Origin: Alphaproteobacteria bacterium
GTDB lineage: Bacteria; Pseudomonadota; Alphaproteobacteria; UBA7887
Direction: 5' to 3'
Length of the DNA stretch: 64,000 bases
NCBI GenBank assembly: GCA_030739735.1
Contig: JASLYQ010000018.1
Coordinates: 1-64,000 of the forward strand
In this document: positions 26,702-37,496 of the stretch, piece after piece
How positions within the stretch are numbered: the first letter of the stretch is position 1
Layout of the letters: every line of letters starts with the position of its first letter
The notes under the pieces: generated by a model
The model's database searches: none
Told to the model about the DNA's origin: nothing
Seen by the model: only the letters and a program-made list of their open reading frames with translations
Program-made: the position numbers and the translations under genes

Positions 26702-28189
26702 TTACAACGAATTTAGAAAGGCGAGCACAGCATCCCGCTCACGTTTTGGCATTGCCGCGAAAGCATCTCGCGCCACCTGTCCTTCGCCACCATGCCAAAG
26801 AATGGCCTCCGTCAGATCGCGCGCCCGACCATCGTGCAGAAAAAACGTGTGGCCACTGACCGCTTCGGTGAGACCTATGCCCCACAGCGGTGGTGTGCGC
26901 CATTCCCTCCCGCTCGCCTCACCCTCGGGCCGTCCGTCCGCCAGGCCGTCACCCATATCGTGCAGCAGAAGGTCGCTGTAAGGCCAGATAAGCTGGCCGC
27001 CAAGCGCGGGCACCGCGTAGTCATTGCGAGTGGCAAACTTCGGGGTATGACAACCAGTACAGCCAGCAACATAGAAAAGCCGCTTGCCCGCGAGCACATT
27101 AGTCGCATCGACATCGCGTCGGGCGGGCACTGCGAGATTGCGGGCGTAGAACAAGACGAACTCCATGATCTCGGACGGGGCTTCAAAACCACCATGCTTT
27201 GGAGAGTCGCCGTGCGGGCCTGTACGGCAATCCGTCTGTACCTCCGTGCAGTCGCCCCAGGGGTCCTGCACCAAGGGGTTGGAGATGCCTATATCCCCCG
27301 CAAACGCACTCGCTCCCTGCTCGGCAAGGCTTGGCTGGCCGGCCTTCCAGCCGAAGCGGCCCAGAACGAACTTACCCTGCTCGGCGCTCCACACCCGGTT
27401 GGGCCGACCGCTGATGCCGTCCCCATCGACATCGTCGGGGTCAGTGTGGGCAAGGATGTCAACTTCCGCGATGGCTTCAAGGAGCCCTAGGCCAATCATC
27501 GGCGGCGCCACACGCGGGCTCAGCATGACGTCAGGATGCATCGGACCATAGGCAAGATCTGCCACGCTGTAGGTGGGCTTGCGCAGGACAATAGCTTTCC
27601 CGCCGTCCAGCACGACGCGGACGTCCTGATAGGAAATAACCATTCGCCCCTCCGCCCGGTACCCGGGTAGGGCTAGATCCTGCAACTGCCCGCCATAGGT
27701 GGGCTCCGGGACCACGGTCAGCTTTTCATTACCCGAAGTCTGCTGTGGTATTGAAAGACGCAGAAACATCGAAACCGCGGTGTCGTCGGGACCGGCAGGC
27801 GGGTGGCCGCGACCGTCCTTCAGGTGACAACGCTGACAAGCTCTGGCGTTATAGAGCGGCCCTAAACCGTCAGCCGTTTTGACTGACGCCGGGGCCGTGA
27901 CCCAGACACGGCGAAACACGCCGTCGCCAACAAAAAAGTTCGCTTGCTCTTCGAAAGGCAAGTTGGCGGAGTGCTGCGAAAAAGCATCATGGCCAAAGCG
28001 CCTGCGATTGGTCGCCGAGCCGCCCGATAACGTCTCCCATTTCTCGGCTTGCGAGAAGTGGTTGGTCGGAGCCAGTATCGCCGCCCTTTGATCTGCAGTG
28101 GCGCCAGCGAGCACGCTCACCGGCAGCACAAATATCAGCAAGACAAAAGCAAGCCAGCGCAGCGTTCCAATCCCTTTCTCAAGACACAA
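26702..28189 (-). CDS. Di-haem c-type cytochrome, DUF1111 (thiol oxidoreductase-like)
   Basis: A periplasmic cytochrome of about 495 residues with a signal peptide (LRWLAFVLLIFVLPVSVLAGA) and two CxxCH haem-binding motifs: CQRCHLKDGRG near residue 125 and CTGCHTPKF near 370. It belongs to the di-haem DUF1111 family, regularly found beside imelysin genes and iron-regulated. The start is uncertain: the frame is open to an ATG at 28273, but this would overlap imelysin; I prefer the TTG at 28189, 25 bases after the imelysin stop. It is the third gene of the OprB-imelysin-DUF1111 operon and probably transfers electrons during metal handling. Confidence 0.85.
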   Translation of the reverse strand: MCLEKGIGTLRWLAFVLLIFVLPVSVLAGATADQRAAILAPTNHFSQAEKWETLSGGSATNRRRFGHDAFSQHSANLPFEEQANFFVGDGVFRRVWVTAPASVKTADGLGPLYNARACQRCHLKDGRGHPPAGPDDTAVSMFLRLSIPQQTSGNEKLTVVPEPTYGGQLQDLALPGYRAEGRMVISYQDVRVVLDGGKAIVLRKPTYSVADLAYGPMHPDVMLSPRVAPPMIGLGLLEAIAEVDILAHTDPDDVDGDGISGRPNRVWSAEQGKFVLGRFGWKAGQPSLAEQGASAFAGDIGISNPLVQDPWGDCTEVQTDCRTGPHGDSPKHGGFEAPSEIMEFVLFYARNLAVPARRDVDATNVLAGKRLFYVAGCTGCHTPKFATRNDYAVPALGGQLIWPYSDLLLHDMGDGLADGRPEGEASGREWRTPPLWGIGLTEAVSGHTFFLHDGRARDLTEAILWHGGEGQVARDAFAAMPKRERDAVLAFLNSL

Positions 28190-28214
28190 GGCCCGTATAT
28201 TACTGGAAAACCTC

Positions 28215-29474
28215 TTATTGGAAAACCGCCTCCGGGTTTTCCAGGCTATCCGAGCCCTCGAATGCCACGTCACCTAATGCTAGTACGGCCACGACTTTCT
28301 TAATCGTCGTGGTCTGATCGAGAAGCGCGTCGACGGCAGCTTGGACCACGGCATTACCCGCCGTATTCCCATCTGCGATAAGCTGATCGTAGGCCACACC
28401 ATTCTCCGCCGACTGCCGCATAGCCTCCATAGCAGCAATGGTGGCGTCCAGTTTACCGCGCATCTCGACATCGACCTCGGGTGCAGTCGCTTTGACAAGA
28501 TCGCTTAGGGCCGGCCCCTCAACAACCCGTCCGTCGATGCGCTGGTAGCGACCAAGATATACATTTTGGATGCCAACCTCATCAAAATAATGGGAATTGT
28601 GGGTGTTGTCCGAGAAGCAGTCATGTTCTTCCTCGGGATCGTGGAGCAAAAGACCCAGCTTTATACGCTCTCCGGCTAACTCGCCGAAAGACAGACTGCC
28701 CATGCCCGTGATGATTGTTGCCAGGCCATCTTGCATGGTGCTAGCGCTCAACCCGACCCGTGCTTTACCGCCCGTACCCCACGCGACAACCATTTCTCGC
28801 AGATCCGCAACGAGCAGGTCGGTCGCAGTGGTCAGATAGGCCGCTCGACGCAGGCAGTTTCCGCCAGTGCAACCGGTAAGTGAATAGTCGGTCCAGGGTC
28901 GCTCACCGGCGCCTGGGCCGGTGCCGTTCAGGTCCTGTCCCCAAATCAGAAACTCGATAGCGTGATAGCCGCTGGCGACGTTGGCTTCAACCGCATCGAC
29001 CTCGTGCAAGGCGTGGATAAGGTCTTGATCGATCGTCGTAGCATCGACGGTATGACCCCCAAACACCAGGTCGGGGTTGGCAATAACATTGGCGGTGTAA
29101 AAGGCGTTTTCCTCATTGTTCGCGCCATACCCCCTGTGAACGTAGTCGATCAAACCTTCGTCTAATGGCCAGGCGTTTACCTTGCCTTCCCATTCATCGA
29201 CGAGAACATTCCCGAAGCGGTAGACTTCGGTTTGTTGGTAGGGGACACGTGCCGAAATCCAGGCCGTCTTCGTCGCCTTTAAACTCGCCTCGCTCGGCTC
29301 CGTCAAAAAGGCGCGGACGGCCGACTGTAGTTCCAGCGCGGTTGTATGGGAATCCTCGTATTTCGCCAATGCGATATCTGCGTAGGTTTCCAGGATATCG
29401 CTAACCTCCATCGACGCCACTGCCTGAACGGGTAACGCAAATGCAATGGCGGCGGCTACAACAGCGTATTTCAT
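28215..29474 (-). CDS. Imelysin-family periplasmic iron-associated protein
   Basis: A 419-residue imelysin (peptidase M75 family) protein with an N-terminal signal peptide (VVAAAIAFALPVQAVA). The GxHxxE motif typical of the family is present in GYHAIEFLIWGQDLNGTG around residue 165-180. Members such as IrpA, EfeO/EfeM relatives and ICMP bind iron at or outside the membrane; peptidase activity is doubted. A paralogous helical repeat is expected for the family. It is located between oprB-like and DUF1111 genes with the same orientation, an association widely known for iron-responsive loci. Confidence 0.9.
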   Translation of the reverse strand: MKYAVVAAAIAFALPVQAVASMEVSDILETYADIALAKYEDSHTTALELQSAVRAFLTEPSEASLKATKTAWISARVPYQQTEVYRFGNVLVDEWEGKVNAWPLDEGLIDYVHRGYGANNEENAFYTANVIANPDLVFGGHTVDATTIDQDLIHALHEVDAVEANVASGYHAIEFLIWGQDLNGTGPGAGERPWTDYSLTGCTGGNCLRRAAYLTTATDLLVADLREMVVAWGTGGKARVGLSASTMQDGLATIITGMGSLSFGELAGERIKLGLLLHDPEEEHDCFSDNTHNSHYFDEVGIQNVYLGRYQRIDGRVVEGPALSDLVKATAPEVDVEMRGKLDATIAAMEAMRQSAENGVAYDQLIADGNTAGNAVVQAAVDALLDQTTTIKKVVAVLALGDVAFEGSDSLENPEAVFQ

Positions 29475-31155: not shown

Positions 31156-32400
31156 ATGATCGGAATGAGCGGGTTTGCCGCAATCGCCGCCACATTGAGC
31201 GAATCAAACTACCGCCGCTACGTGCTCGGCAACGCCGTCTCGCTGACCGGGACCTGGGTGCAGCGGCTCGCCATAGGCTGGTTGACCTGGGAGTTGACGG
31301 GCTCGGGCGCCTGGCTTGGCATCATCGCCTTCGCGGATCTTGCGCCGGCAATGCTGGTTGGCCCGCTCGGCGGCGCGCTCGCAGACCGCGGCAACCGACT
31401 TGGCCTGCTACGCCTCGGCCAATCGCTGCTGATGTTGCAGGCGCTTATGCTCTGCGGCTTGACCGCAACCGGCATTATCGATCGCTGGTCGCTGCTGGTC
31501 GTGGTCCTGCTCGGCGGGGCGGTGATCGGTATCAACCAGCCGGCCAGGCTGGCCCTGGTATCCAGCCTGGTCTCGCGGCAGAACTTATCGACGGCTATCG
31601 CCATCAACTCGGTTGTTTTCAACTTGGCACGCTTTCTCGGGCCTGCCATCGCCGGAGCGCTGATCGTGGCCGGCGGAACGGCGGTCGCCTTCGCTGCCAA
31701 TGCGGTAAGCTTCCTCGCCTTTCTCGTGGCTCTACACGGCTTGCGGGCAGTCCTTCCTGAATCGCCACCCCGGCGCAGCAGTGGCGGCCTGCTCGGGAAC
31801 GTCGCCGACGGCTTCCGCTATGCCGCCGGGCATCGCGGCATCGCCATGCTGCTCATCATGATGGCAATCCTATCGATAGCCGTTCGCCCCTTCATCGAGC
31901 TGATGCCAGGCTTCGCCGCCGCCGTCCTGGAGGGTGGGGCCGGGACCCTAGCCCTGCTCAGCTCGACGATAGGGATCGGCGCCGTCGCGGGCGGGATTTG
32001 GCTTGCCCAGCGGGGCGGCTCGGAAGGTCTTACGCGGATCGTACTCGTTGGCACCACCATGGCCGGCGTCACCGTGCTTGGCTTTGCCCTCAGTCGCAGC
32101 CTATGGACCGCACTGCCTTGCGTGGCACTGACCGGCTTCTTCTTGGTCACCTGTGGCGTCGGTGTGCAGACGCTGCTGCAAACCGCCGTGGACGGCAGTA
32201 TGCGTGGGCGCGTGCTCAGCCTCTACGGTCTACTTTTCCGTGGCGGTCCGGCGCTCGGTGCGTTGGCCATGGGCGCAGCGTCCGAGATAGCCGGCCTGGC
32301 AGCGCCGCTAGTCGCCGGCTGCCTCGCCTCCACCGCCATCACGCTTCTGGCCTGGCGGCGCCTGGCCCACGCTTCGCTCACCCTGGAGGGAAGCGGATAG
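31156..32400 (+). CDS. MFS transporter (MFS_3/EntS-like)
   Basis: A permease of about 414 residues with twelve predicted membrane segments. The N-terminal YRRYVLGNAVSLTGTWVQRL and the loop LGGALADRGNRLGLLRLGQ are typical of the MFS_3 branch that includes enterobactin exporter EntS and related efflux proteins. The ATG at 31156 is preferred to a GTG at 31147. Its last 93 bases overlap the 3' end of the convergent TRAP permease gene. Substrate unknown; an exporter of a small metabolite is the usual role. Confidence 0.85.
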   Translation: MIGMSGFAAIAATLSESNYRRYVLGNAVSLTGTWVQRLAIGWLTWELTGSGAWLGIIAFADLAPAMLVGPLGGALADRGNRLGLLRLGQSLLMLQALMLCGLTATGIIDRWSLLVVVLLGGAVIGINQPARLALVSSLVSRQNLSTAIAINSVVFNLARFLGPAIAGALIVAGGTAVAFAANAVSFLAFLVALHGLRAVLPESPPRRSSGGLLGNVADGFRYAAGHRGIAMLLIMMAILSIAVRPFIELMPGFAAAVLEGGAGTLALLSSTIGIGAVAGGIWLAQRGGSEGLTRIVLVGTTMAGVTVLGFALSRSLWTALPCVALTGFFLVTCGVGVQTLLQTAVDGSMRGRVLSLYGLLFRGGPALGALAMGAASEIAGLAAPLVAGCLASTAITLLAWRRLAHASLTLEGSG

Positions 32401-34278
32401 ATCCGACCTTGCGCGCACGGCCTGCGCCAGCACCACCAAGGCCAGCAGCCCGGCACCTACCAGATCGCTGCGCCACCCGCCGGCAAGCAGTGCAACCGCT
32501 GCCGCGCCCGCCAGCAAACGCTCAGGGATTCCCATCGGTCGCAGGAGATAGCCCTGGACACAGGCTGCGAGCGCCACGATGCCGACCAGCGCAGTTACTA
32601 AGGCCTGGATGACATCGAGGCCGTCGCCAATCAACAACAGCGAAGGGCTGTAAGCTATGACGAAGGGCACAAGATAAACCGCCGCGCCAAGCTTCATCGC
32701 CGCAAAGCCAGTCGACTGTAGCGGCGTCTGTGCAATAGTCGCCGCCGCATACGCGGCGATGGCGACGGGCGGCGTAATAGCCGAGATGATGGCGTAATAG
32801 AAGATGAAGAAATGCGCCGCTAGCGGCATCACGCCAAGCTTGATCAGCGCCGGCGCCCCGAAGATAGCCACCACCATATAAGCCGCCGCCGTCGGCAGCC
32901 CCATTCCAAGAATGATGCAGCAAAGCATCACCAGCACCATGGTGAGGAAGAGATTCTCCCCGGTGATACTGAGCAGAATAGAAGTGAAGCGCAGGCCGAG
33001 ATTCGATTGCTCGATGACGCCCACGACCAAGGCCGCGACGAACAACGCGGCAGCTATCGGTGCGATGCGCCGCGCGCCTGCCTCCAAACCATCGAACAGC
33101 GTCTTGGCATCGACGCGCGTATGCGCGCGAAGCCAAGACAGCACGACCGTCGCCACCACGCCGACATAAGCCGCAAAGAACGGCGTATAACGATTAGCCA
33201 GCAAAACCACGACGACAACCAGTACCAGCAGCATGTGGATATCGAGCCGGATCGCCCGCCGCGCGGTTGCCACCATATCGGGAGCCATGGCCGGCAAATC
33301 GCTCCGCTTTGCTTCCAGGGTGACCATGAAATAGACGGCGAAGAGGTAAAGGAAGGCCGGCAGCGCCGCCCCCAGCGCAACATCCGTATATTCGGTGTTG
33401 GTGAAGTCAGCGATGAGAAAGGCCGCCGAGCCCATGATCGGCGGCACCAATTGCCCGCTAGCCGATGCCACCGCCTCCACGGCGGCCGCGAACTTGCGCC
33501 GGAAGCCGGTACGGATCATCAACGGAATGGTGAACGTGCCCGTCGCATAGACATTCGCCGTAGCGGCGCCGGAGATGGAACCAAACAGAGCACTTGCCAG
33601 CACCGCGGCCTTGGCCGGCCCGCCCTTGACCTTGCCCATGACAGTAATCGCGATGTTCATGAACAGCTCACCGCCGCGGGCCTTCTCCAGCACAGCGCCA
33701 AGTAGCACGAACATGAGGACATAGGTGCCGGAGATATTGGTGATGGTCCCGTAGAGTCCGTCGGTGGTCATGAACAGGTGATCGACCAGCAGCATCGGCG
33801 CCACCGCACCAGTGTCAAACGGAGCGGGAAAATAGGGGCCGTACAGAGCGTGAAGCACAAATACTGCCAGCAGCACAACAAGTGTCCAGCCAACGGTACG
33901 CCTACATGCCTCTACGACGAGAATGATAGCGAGCAAGGCTGCAGCCCAATCCCAGATCTCGAGCGGCATGACATAGGGGTAGCGCTCTTCCGCGATATAG
34001 CTGAAATTCGCGTAGATATAAGCCATTGGCAGCCAGGCCAGAGCGAACAGTAGCCAGTCCCACCACGGAATTTTTACGCTCCGGTCATCCCTACACCAAC
34101 CGTATGCCACAAAGGTGAGCGCGCAATACATCGCCACGTGCATAGGGCGAAACATGCGCGCCTCTGGCAAGCCGAACTGCGCGCCGTAGAGATGATAGGC
34201 AACGATGGCGACACTGCCCCAGCGCAGCAGCAGTCCGCCGAAGCCGGAGAGTCGGCGCTGGCCGGCGATCTCGATCAT
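32308..34278 (-). CDS. TRAP transporter fused permease (DctQM type)
   Basis: A 656-residue polytopic protein that joins the small and large TRAP permease subunits, as usual for TAXI-type systems. About sixteen hydrophobic segments are seen; LGMGLPTAAAYMVVAIFGAPALIK (a conserved gate-region segment) lies near residue 460 and FIFYYAIISAITPPVAIAAY near 490 (positions approximate). It starts 3 bases after the TAXI receptor stop. The final 30 residues are hydrophilic and glycine-rich and lie in the overlap with the convergent MFS gene, so they may have arisen by loss of an earlier stop. Confidence 0.9.
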   Translation of the reverse strand: MIEIAGQRRLSGFGGLLLRWGSVAIVAYHLYGAQFGLPEARMFRPMHVAMYCALTFVAYGWCRDDRSVKIPWWDWLLFALAWLPMAYIYANFSYIAEERYPYVMPLEIWDWAAALLAIILVVEACRRTVGWTLVVLLAVFVLHALYGPYFPAPFDTGAVAPMLLVDHLFMTTDGLYGTITNISGTYVLMFVLLGAVLEKARGGELFMNIAITVMGKVKGGPAKAAVLASALFGSISGAATANVYATGTFTIPLMIRTGFRRKFAAAVEAVASASGQLVPPIMGSAAFLIADFTNTEYTDVALGAALPAFLYLFAVYFMVTLEAKRSDLPAMAPDMVATARRAIRLDIHMLLVLVVVVVLLANRYTPFFAAYVGVVATVVLSWLRAHTRVDAKTLFDGLEAGARRIAPIAAALFVAALVVGVIEQSNLGLRFTSILLSITGENLFLTMVLVMLCCIILGMGLPTAAAYMVVAIFGAPALIKLGVMPLAAHFFIFYYAIISAITPPVAIAAYAAATIAQTPLQSTGFAAMKLGAAVYLVPFVIAYSPSLLLIGDGLDVIQALVTALVGIVALAACVQGYLLRPMGIPERLLAGAAAVALLAGGWRSDLVGAGLLALVVLAQAVRARSDLSASLQGERSVGQAPPGQKRDGGGGEAAGD

Positions 34279-34281
34279 GCG

Positions 34282-35277
34282 CTAGTTCAGCAATCCCATC
34301 TCGCGGTAATAGCGCTCTGCGCCGGGATGCAGAGAGATTGGAAAGTCGCGCGGGCCAACCGCAGGATCAAGCGCTTCGAAGAGGCTGTGCGCAGCCACCA
34401 GATCGTCCCTGTTCTCAAAGGTCAGGCGCGTCATGGCATAAACTAGGTCGTCTGGTGCATCCTTATGCGTGAAGAAGACAAAATGCTGCGCGGTCGAGGG
34501 CACGTCCTCAGTCTGGCCAGCGTAGGTCCCAGCCGGAATCATTGCACGGCGATAGCCATATTTTTTAACCATCTGCTCGCGAATATCCTCGTCCATAGGC
34601 AGAAACAGGACGTCGCGGGCATGAGCGATATCGGTGAAGACTGGATTGCCGATGATGTCGTCGTTGAGAAAAGCCTCAATGTGGCCGTCTTTCATGCGGC
34701 CCAGAGCCTCGCGATACGAGGAATGTGTGATCGAGCCGCCCCAGTCGCGAATATTGTCATAGTCTGCGCCATAGAGCTCGAGCAAACGGCTGGCCGCCAG
34801 CTCGCCGCCAGTGCCACGCGGGCCGGTGTCGATGGTCAGCGGATATTCCTTCGTGGCGATGTCGGCGAGTGATGTTATGCGCGAGCTCTCGAGCACGATC
34901 GGGTGCACGACACCGGCCACATTAAGATTAAGGATACCGCGAAAATCGGCCATTACCTTGCGGTAGGGTGGCTCGCCCCGGCTTGCCGCATGCAGCAGCG
35001 AGTTATAGCCGAGCGCCGACGTAGCCAGACCCTGCTCGACCGCCATCGGATTAGCGACTGCGCCGCCCGGGGTGACCGTATAGCGCAGTCCCTCGATATT
35101 GCGCTGGAAAAGGTCGTACATGGCTGTGGTGATAACGAACCAGGAACCACCGATGGAGCCCGCAGCCACCACCTGCTCGCCCGCATCGGTCGAATAGGGC
35201 TTGTCCTGTGCCTCTGCCGCCGGCATGGGCAGCAGTACCAATAGCGCCGCAAGCCGTCGCACCCACCGTATTGTCAT
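34282..35277 (-). CDS. TAXI-family TRAP solute receptor
   Basis: A 331-residue periplasmic receptor of the TAXI (TRAP-associated extracytoplasmic immunogenic) family. It has a signal peptide (LAALLVLLPMPAAEA), the family start VVAAGSIGGSWFVITTAMYD, and DTGPRGTGGELAASRLLELYG near residue 150. The ATG at 35277 is preferred over 35298 since it follows a purine-rich AGGGGGG. With the fused permease it forms a full transporter. Some TAXI systems take up glutamate or 2-oxoacids, but the ligand here is unknown. It is preceded by a NosR-like gene in the same direction, 68 bases away. Confidence 0.9.
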   Translation of the reverse strand: MTIRWVRRLAALLVLLPMPAAEAQDKPYSTDAGEQVVAAGSIGGSWFVITTAMYDLFQRNIEGLRYTVTPGGAVANPMAVEQGLATSALGYNSLLHAASRGEPPYRKVMADFRGILNLNVAGVVHPIVLESSRITSLADIATKEYPLTIDTGPRGTGGELAASRLLELYGADYDNIRDWGGSITHSSYREALGRMKDGHIEAFLNDDIIGNPVFTDIAHARDVLFLPMDEDIREQMVKKYGYRRAMIPAGTYAGQTEDVPSTAQHFVFFTHKDAPDDLVYAMTRLTFENRDDLVAAHSLFEALDPAVGPRDFPISLHPGAERYYREMGLLN

Positions 35278-35345
35278 GGCGCCCCCCCTGCTGTGCAATT
35301 GTCGAGCCTATGCTCACCCGCCAATCCAGGCAACGGCGATGCGCC

Positions 35346-37496
35346 CTATTGCGCGGTCACCGGCTCGATAAGCGTGTCGCGCTCGCGCTGCTTGCGCTGC
35401 TGAGCCAGCGGCGGACATTGATGGGCATCGTTGTAAAGCACCTGGCAATCGAGGCAGTAGAAACATTCGTCCATGACGATATGCCCGTCCGGTGCGATCG
35501 CCTGGATCGGGCAGCGCCGGGTGCACAGCTGACACGGGCTGCCGCACTCCGCATAACGCTTAAGGAAGACGAGCGGTCGCAGCCGCAGCTTGCCGCCGAG
35601 CACCATGGCGGCCCCCACAGGGCAGAGAAAGCGGCAGAAAAAACGCTCAGTGAACAGGCCTATGGCGAGCAGCGTCACAGCGTATATGACATAGGGCCAA
35701 TCGCGCGCGAATCGCAGCGATATCGCTGTCTTGAAGGGCTCAACCTCAGCCGCCGTGCCAGCCGTCGTCATGGAATAGAAGGACAGCCCGACAAGGACGG
35801 CCAAAATCACGTATTTGACCGGCCAAAGCAGCTGGTGAGCACGATAGGACAGGCCGACTTCCCGGATGCCCAGCCTGCGGGCCGCCTTGGCCAACAACTC
35901 CTGCATGACACCGAAGGGACAGAGCCAGCCGCAGAACACGCCGCGGCCCCAGATGACGAAACTGACCACCACGAAAGCCATCAGGACGGCGATCAACGGA
36001 TCCGACAGCACCACTTCGGGACTGCCGCCACCGATGATCGTCTGCAGCCAGGTCAGCAGGTTGATGATGGTGACCTGAGCGCCGACCTGCCAGCCGAGCC
36101 AAGCAACGACGACAGCCAGATAGGCAATCCGCACAGCACTGAAGAGTTGTGGCCGCCGGGTCAGCCACTGCATCCCGAACAAGATCGCTGTCAGGGCGAG
36201 CAGCAGCACGCACAGAATAGCGATATTACTGCCTTGCATCCGCCACGTCGCAAGCCAGGCGGGGCCACTGTCCCCGCTCGCCACAGCAACACCCGTCGGC
36301 TCGACGATGTAGCGGGCGTCCAGCGTATAATCAACAGCGAAGGTCACGCGATCCTCTCCATTGCGCGCGACCACGTCGAGCTCGACCATGAACGGCTCGA
36401 GCGGGTTGATACCCTGCTCGTGCTTGATCCAAAACAGACCCATCTGAGAAAATTTTGGCCCGGACCTGTCCGGCAGAAAATTGATGTAGCGATACTGGCC
36501 GCGGTCGAGGGCGAATACCTGGCCTCCTTGGACAACGCGCGCACGATCCAGAACACCGTCCGCGCGCAGCTTTTGCGGATCAAACAGATAGGGGCCTGCA
36601 CCCATGAGCAGTAATGTCAGGTCGCGCGGGTCGCGACCGCTGACGAAAAGATTGTAGCGGCCCTGCCCGAGCAGGTTTCGCCCGATGGTCGGCGGATGCA
36701 CTGGTGCCACCAACAGCTCGATCACAGTGGTATCGTCGAGGTGCTCACCACCGACTTGGTCGGAAAGCGGCGCTAGCGCCGGATAACCTACGGTGGTCTC
36801 GGCGAGATCTGACTTATTTATTGTCAGACGCGCGATCGAGCCATCGGCAATCAACTCAGACAACGTCGCCGGATCGTAAGCGATTAGATCGACGGCCGGC
36901 TCGTCGTTGAGCCGCAAGCCCCTCGCCCGAGCCACCTTGCGCGCGCTGTCAAGCACAGCCTCGTTAAACAGCACAGCGCTGATCGTAGCGGAGCTGATGC
37001 CGTCCAGAGTGCCCTCTTCCTCGACTCGCGTCAGCGCCACACGCCACGGCCGTCGAATGTCCAGGCCCGCATATTGCGCCGTAAAGGGGGTAACCAGCTT
37101 GTGCAGCAAGATCAGGTCGATGATCGGCTCATGCTGCTCGACAACATCAATGCCGGTGAGAACCCCGTCAAGACCAAGGCCGATTGCAATATTGAAAGGC
37201 TGGAGCGAGAAGCCGAGAGAGCGGCTCTTGTCAGCGGTGTCGAAAACGTAGCCGAGCGGCGTGCCGTCTTTCATGACCACGGCCGAAAGGACCTCACCTT
37301 CCAACGGCATGATCTTGGTCGCCTCGGGAAACAGCCGCTGCACCCGCTCCATGGTCAGCCACTCGGCTCCAAGGTCGGGATTGTACCAGTTCGCAACGTC
37401 TGGCGGAATCGGGTCTTCGCCGAGCGCGGACGCGACAAGGCCGGCTATGATGCCGGCCGCAAGGACTAGAGACGCAAGCGCTCGTTCGATTCCCAT
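35346..37496 (-). CDS. NosR-like FMN-binding polyferredoxin membrane protein
   Basis: A 716-residue membrane flavo-iron-sulfur protein of the NosR/NirI family. Order: signal/anchor helix (ALASLVLAAGIIAGLVASAL), periplasmic FMN-binding domain with DGISSATISA (covalent-flavin threonine at about T171; usual SGAT is SSAT here), several transmembrane helices from about 410, two CxxxCP membrane motifs (CGWLCPFG, CRFLCPVG), and C-terminal 4Fe-4S clusters in CQLCTRRCP and CFYCLDCQ. NosR feeds electrons to nitrous oxide reductase; no nos genes are present in this window, and the downstream genes are TAXI-TRAP. The ATG at 37496 has GAAGG upstream. Confidence 0.88.
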   Translation of the reverse strand: MGIERALASLVLAAGIIAGLVASALGEDPIPPDVANWYNPDLGAEWLTMERVQRLFPEATKIMPLEGEVLSAVVMKDGTPLGYVFDTADKSRSLGFSLQPFNIAIGLGLDGVLTGIDVVEQHEPIIDLILLHKLVTPFTAQYAGLDIRRPWRVALTRVEEEGTLDGISSATISAVLFNEAVLDSARKVARARGLRLNDEPAVDLIAYDPATLSELIADGSIARLTINKSDLAETTVGYPALAPLSDQVGGEHLDDTTVIELLVAPVHPPTIGRNLLGQGRYNLFVSGRDPRDLTLLLMGAGPYLFDPQKLRADGVLDRARVVQGGQVFALDRGQYRYINFLPDRSGPKFSQMGLFWIKHEQGINPLEPFMVELDVVARNGEDRVTFAVDYTLDARYIVEPTGVAVASGDSGPAWLATWRMQGSNIAILCVLLLALTAILFGMQWLTRRPQLFSAVRIAYLAVVVAWLGWQVGAQVTIINLLTWLQTIIGGGSPEVVLSDPLIAVLMAFVVVSFVIWGRGVFCGWLCPFGVMQELLAKAARRLGIREVGLSYRAHQLLWPVKYVILAVLVGLSFYSMTTAGTAAEVEPFKTAISLRFARDWPYVIYAVTLLAIGLFTERFFCRFLCPVGAAMVLGGKLRLRPLVFLKRYAECGSPCQLCTRRCPIQAIAPDGHIVMDECFYCLDCQVLYNDAHQCPPLAQQRKQRERDTLIEPVTAQ

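Follow-up and report, generated by a model that had tools for sequence, protein, structure and literature searches.

The window, by which we mean the whole stretch of 64,000 nucleotides analysed here, belongs to contig C18 of an alphaproteobacterial genome (G000; 2.64 Mb, 69 contigs, 98.8% complete). On its minus strand a gene for a NosR-type protein is followed after 68 bp by the gene of a TAXI receptor, and this after 3 bp by the gene of a fused TRAP permease (Table 1). The initial annotation had described a NosR-type gene preceding those for a TAXI receptor and a fused permease, and all three genes are present at the positions it gave. A zinc alcohol dehydrogenase gene begins 86 bp from the trio and runs in the opposite direction, and a plus-strand MFS gene overlaps the 3' end of the permease gene by 93 bp.

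No terminator-like site was found when the 68-bp gap was scanned, and no sigma-70-like promoter was found anywhere in the NosR/TAXI-TRAP region of the window. The gaps, the shared strand and the lack of a terminator-like site give the look of a real operon, so that the NosR-type gene and the TAXI-TRAP pair are likely co-expressed in this organism. Both transporter proteins are ordinary TAXI-family TRAP members, scoring above the curated cut-offs of 84.35 bits (TIGR02122) and 320.65 bits (TIGR02123); it is the NosR neighbour alone that is unusual. With 656 residues the permease is shorter at the C-terminus than its orthologs in relatives, whose open reading frames have 772-804 residues (L051-L056).

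Table 1. Positions in the window of the genes and motifs discussed in the text.
Feature	Position	Strand	Evidence
NosR-type gene, 716 residues	35346-37496	-	Open reading frame; NF046105, 572 bits; Fer4_5; AlphaFold2; Foldseek; tree
Predicted flavinylation motif, D165-G-I-S-S-A-T171, with T171 as the expected FMN site	36984-37004	-	Sequence; alignment with 101 relatives
First CxxxCP motif, C522 and C526	35919-35933	-	Both Cys in 102/102 aligned relatives
Second CxxxCP motif, C621 and C625	35622-35636	-	Both Cys in 102/102 aligned relatives
C-terminal ferredoxin-type Cys cluster, C651 to C694	35415-35546	-	Alignment of 102 relatives
TAXI-family TRAP solute-binding protein	34282-35277	-	NMT1_3, 169.6 bits; TIGR02122, 151.9 bits
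Fused TRAP permease, both subunits (small and large) in a single protein	32308-34278	-	TIGR02123, 604.2 bits
Imelysin	28215-29474
Di-haem oxidoreductase (DHOR)	26702-28273

Architecture of the NosR-type protein

From its N-terminus the protein consists of a signal, a periplasmic FMN-type domain, a second periplasmic domain, membrane helices with two CxxxCP motifs and a C-terminal ferredoxin-type region. It matches the NCBIfam NosR model NF046105 over residues 48-703 with 572.5 bits, which is under the curated cut-off of 1000, and models of the NapH family match it as well. In Pfam only Fer4_5 is found (67 bits, two stretches), and FMN_bind is not matched. In the ferredoxin-type cluster seven of the eight cysteines are invariant in the aligned relatives, while the eighth, C681, is present in 95% of the protein's own clade.

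An AlphaFold2 model was built from 37 aligned sequences (pLDDT 82.2, pTM 0.69). When this model is used in Foldseek the top solved structure is RnfG (E 1.6e-4, probability 1.00), and NqrC appears lower in the list. RnfG and NqrC are FMN-bearing subunits in which the FMN is covalently bound. Based on these matches a flavin-type domain is present although Pfam misses it, and as modelled an FMN-binding-type domain precedes the membrane part. Searching the PDB directly with the protein sequence gave no match.

The initial annotation had pointed out that the flavin-attachment motif reads SSAT instead of SGAT. The residues are correct; however, this is no oddity of one protein. Throughout the orthologous clade the Gly is replaced by Ser or Ala (27/27), while the Asp is kept in 26/27 and the Ala-Thr in 27/27 members. 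In contrast, all 45 sampled relatives linked to NosZ or NirS have Gly at this position, which makes the replacement a conserved trait of the clade. Elsewhere the position is Arg in a sister subgroup and Lys in a gammaproteobacterial/PQQ type, and in a second NosR copy located beside SoxC genes the flavinylation motif is gone. The idea of a covalent-flavin anomaly peculiar to the window protein was rejected, as the change is common to the whole clade.

The consensus of the ApbE motif is given in a review as Dxx[S/T]GA[S/T], and in one other protein changing the Gly to Ala brought flavinylation down to about 50% (PMC12052999). The replaced Gly, together with this effect in another protein, may weigh against reading the window protein as flavinylated.

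Relation to denitrification proteins and to paralogs

NosR is a membrane protein that supplies electrons to nitrous oxide reductase, and its presence in a genome is commonly taken to indicate that nitrous oxide is reduced. The window protein shares with NosR (NF046105, K19339) the FMN-type domain, the second periplasmic domain, the two CxxxCP motifs and the C-terminal Fe-S region, and is 32-38% identical to full-length NosR proteins linked to nosZ. It differs from them in having no nosZ, in its score below the cut-off, in belonging to another clade and in the Ser that takes the place of the motif Gly. It also has the architecture of NirI, the NosR paralog found beside nirS, and NirI is the closest denitrification group in the tree, with up to 41% identity. 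However, the loci of the clade have no nirS, and the Gly replaced in the window protein is kept in 18/18 nirS-linked proteins.

The genome check for nosZ and apbE proposed in the initial annotation found no NosZ in G000, by a search that did detect it in two positive-control genomes (G074 and G191), and a single copy of ApbE (C26:33936-34760, 218 bits). Nor was NosZ found in 15 other genomes carrying the branch of the window protein. The Pfam nos_propeller family matched no control genome, so the absence of NosZ rests on the search with working controls. NirS had no match in the window or in 26 ortholog loci, the search covering the loci that were fetched.

In the tree the window protein falls into a clade of 44 rows without nosZ or nirS neighbours (SH-aLRT 100), which is distinct from the groups linked to nosZ and nirS. 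After a second order was added it sits in an orthologous clade of 27 rows with support 100/100, drawn from two orders of one class. That a NosR-type electron-transfer protein exists here outside nitrous oxide reduction, as the initial annotation suggested, agrees with the lack of nosZ in this genome and in the other 15 of the branch. The NF046105 match would suit a conventional NosR or NirI, with its nosZ or nirS located elsewhere or overlooked. However, given a score far under the cut-off, a NosZ search that was negative with working controls and a tree position outside both the nosZ and the nirS groups, we find this reading hardly credible.

The window gene is one of six in the genome for nearly full-length NosR-type proteins, located in four places: the window, a tandem on contig C8, one gene on C5 and a tandem on C1. 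Besides these six copies there is a shorter NapH-like match on C13, where a NapA/NapG/NapH-like cluster is found (L012) with a large subunit under the NapA cut-off. NosR-type matches are present in all nine genomes of the same order.

The tandem pair on C1 (L011:6383-10649) adjoins a sulfite dehydrogenase of the SoxC type (534.7 bits, above the cut-off) and a cytochrome c. One copy of this pair is without the flavinylation motif, and both the gene order and the loss are repeated in G003, G004 and G005 (L049, L045 and L048). The pair on C8 (L009:7126-12398) is divergent from SCO1 and a small gene judged by eye to be cupredoxin-like. Further, in three genomes of family f76 (L069:5098-13244, L070 and L105) the order is SoxC, NosR, NosR, PQQ alcohol dehydrogenase and a MoxJ-like protein.

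The TAXI-TRAP neighbour

The initial annotation had proposed membrane electron transfer tied to solute uptake, and a count of how often the three genes occur together across genomes as a way to check it. For this, 102 NosR-type proteins were placed by context, a second order was then added, and 385 genomes made up the sample of the class. Neighbours were scored against single reference proteins. What is counted is genomes, which are often closely related and do not represent independent events. Further, most of the assemblies are drafts, in which contig ends cut off some neighbours.

Among the 102 NosR-type proteins, that of the window itself is the only one with a TAXI receptor no more than 4.5 kb away. 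In the orthologous clade the transporter is found beside 1/27 members and beside none of the 26 other orthologs. The permease has six orthologs within the family (61-68% identity), all of them at places without NosR. Judged by eye, these (L051-L056) adjoin genes resembling F420 biosynthesis genes, fabI and aroC. A single scan of genome contigs returned gammaproteobacterial NosR types only, without TAXI, and a literature search turned up no paper connecting NosR with TAXI-TRAP transporters. Co-occurrence is therefore not conserved, which the initial annotation had itself named as grounds for giving up a link to uptake, and that link finds no support either in the NosR orthologs or in those of the permease.

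The arrangement is still rare by chance. A rough count gives an expectation of about 0.008 for a TAXI-TRAP neighbour and 0.04 for any TRAP neighbour over five NosR sites; with the four sites that are actually there, the expectation is slightly lower. These low values mean that chance alone is not trivially accepted. Together with the operon-like spacing, they would fit a lineage-specific unit in which the NosR-type protein feeds a periplasmic redox enzyme, and what this enzyme consumes or produces is taken up by the transporter. However, the other orthologs do not have this arrangement, the permease orthologs keep a stable but different neighbourhood, and the operon itself is without any periplasmic redox enzyme. 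Such a unit is in our view unlikely, and the TAXI-TRAP pair next to the window NosR is probably incidental, a one-off.

Candidate partners and a proposed electron conduit

In 15 of the 27 members of the orthologous clade, from both orders, a gene for an amidohydrolase-like protein of about 505 residues lies divergent beside NosR. After it comes, in 15/27 loci, a small gene whose product begins with a signal-like stretch; of the remaining 12 loci two stop short of the amidohydrolase side of NosR. In five genomes (G003, G405, G407, G394 and G392) a second NosR type and ApbE are also part of the cluster. The protein has a weak Amidohydro_2 match (E 1e-7), and its twin-arginine stretch is preceded by a long N-terminal region. 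Its sequence suggests export of the Tat type and a function as an amidohydrolase-like enzyme. A PDB search with its profile found no solved relative, and an AlphaFold2 model was too poor for use (pLDDT 54).

The locus of the amidohydrolase-like and small secreted proteins is probably the ancestral partner of the NosR clade. The pairing is seen in both orders and in an early as well as a late branch of the clade, which makes an ancestral link followed by losses the simpler reading. Alternatively, the amidohydrolase/NosR cluster may have spread horizontally. A search of the readable 41% of G000 did not find the amidohydrolase-like gene, and in the lineage of the window the link would have been lost or moved.

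A different partner is suggested by the five PQQ alcohol dehydrogenases of the genome, four of which score above the cut-off: the window protein could accept electrons from these enzymes and pass them from periplasmic alcohol oxidation to quinone. A PQQ enzyme is present in all seven genomes of the class sample that carry the NosR subclade, compared with 92/385 overall; however, the seven come from two families only and are hence not independent. Related NosR types adjoin PQQ genes (L025, L026, L028, L030, L069, L070 and L105), and near an ortholog in G005 there is a candidate for a quinoprotein-associated SoxYZ-like protein, with 135.7 bits at a cut-off of 140. NapH-like systems with an ethanol oxidase are described in 172 genomes (PMC8238504). 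Against this, no PQQ dehydrogenase was seen beside the 27 orthologs or near the NosR genes of the genome itself, and we regard the role as rather unlikely.

A separate NosR type has the motif TKAT (L022-L030, L122 and L125; AKAT in L122). In several gammaproteobacteria it has a PQQ biosynthesis gene within 10 kb, and in G036 and G182 a PQQ alcohol dehydrogenase about 8-14 kb away.

Imelysin and DHOR genes lie 6-9 kb downstream of NosR in the window (Table 1), and a periplasmic role in iron or copper redox chemistry was considered for this reason. In two genomes of another order, G405 and G407, such a pair lies 1-4 kb from the ortholog (L151:14235-16943 and L154:4718-7427), and the imelysins are 52% identical. 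However, the relative orientation differs between the loci, other genes intervene in the window, and among the fetched loci the pair is near a NosR ortholog only in these. A metal role is thus very improbable, and the imelysin/DHOR pair was set aside as a partner, proximity being weak evidence.

Our preferred reading, to which we give a probability of about 0.6, is that the window protein is a flavinylated conduit between quinone and periplasm belonging to neither the nosZ nor the nirS branch, with its enzyme unlinked, an ancestral amidohydrolase locus and an incidental TAXI-TRAP pair. Proteins of the NosR class carry electrons between a quinone or cytoplasmic donor and a periplasmic FMN through Fe-S centres. 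Here the only ApbE of the genome, whose gene lies on another contig, would load FMN onto T171. Through the Fe-S clusters and the FMN domain in the periplasm, electrons would then be exchanged between a soluble periplasmic enzyme and either the quinone pool or a donor on the cytoplasmic side. This enzyme would be encoded away from the window NosR; ancestrally it may have been the amidohydrolase-like protein, or possibly the PQQ alcohol dehydrogenases serve as partners. In the window lineage the partner locus would have been lost or moved, and the TAXI-TRAP pair now lies 3' of NosR.

The protein fits a known class, the NapH-like flavinylated conduits: Fer4_5, the CxxxCP and Fe-S cysteines, an FMN-type domain and an ApbE in the genome were all found. 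Meheust et al. 2021 describe 2465 NapH-like flavinylated clusters, some beside nirS or an ethanol oxidase and the majority without an assigned reaction (PMC8238504). As in the window protein, these systems combine a Fer4_5 membrane protein with an extracytosolic FMN domain, and the partner varies; unlike in the window clade, an amidohydrolase-like partner is absent from the main text of that survey (PMC8238504).

A broader proposal is that a further NosR/NirI branch, outside denitrification, has radiated in at least two orders, with several paralogs in each genome, and, jointly, that one subgroup pairs NosR and ApbE with a Tat-exported protein of the amidohydrolase fold, from whose locus the window NosR has become detached. 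We hold this as a tentative possibility, short of probable. If true, a periplasmic redox system would have gone unrecognised so far, and its enzyme would come from a family that is not known to take part in redox reactions. The amidohydrolase-like protein is in any case a testable candidate partner for flavinylated conduits, most of which are without an assigned reaction. Finally, with six NosR-type copies in one genome without nosZ, NosR alone is a poor marker of nitrous oxide reduction.
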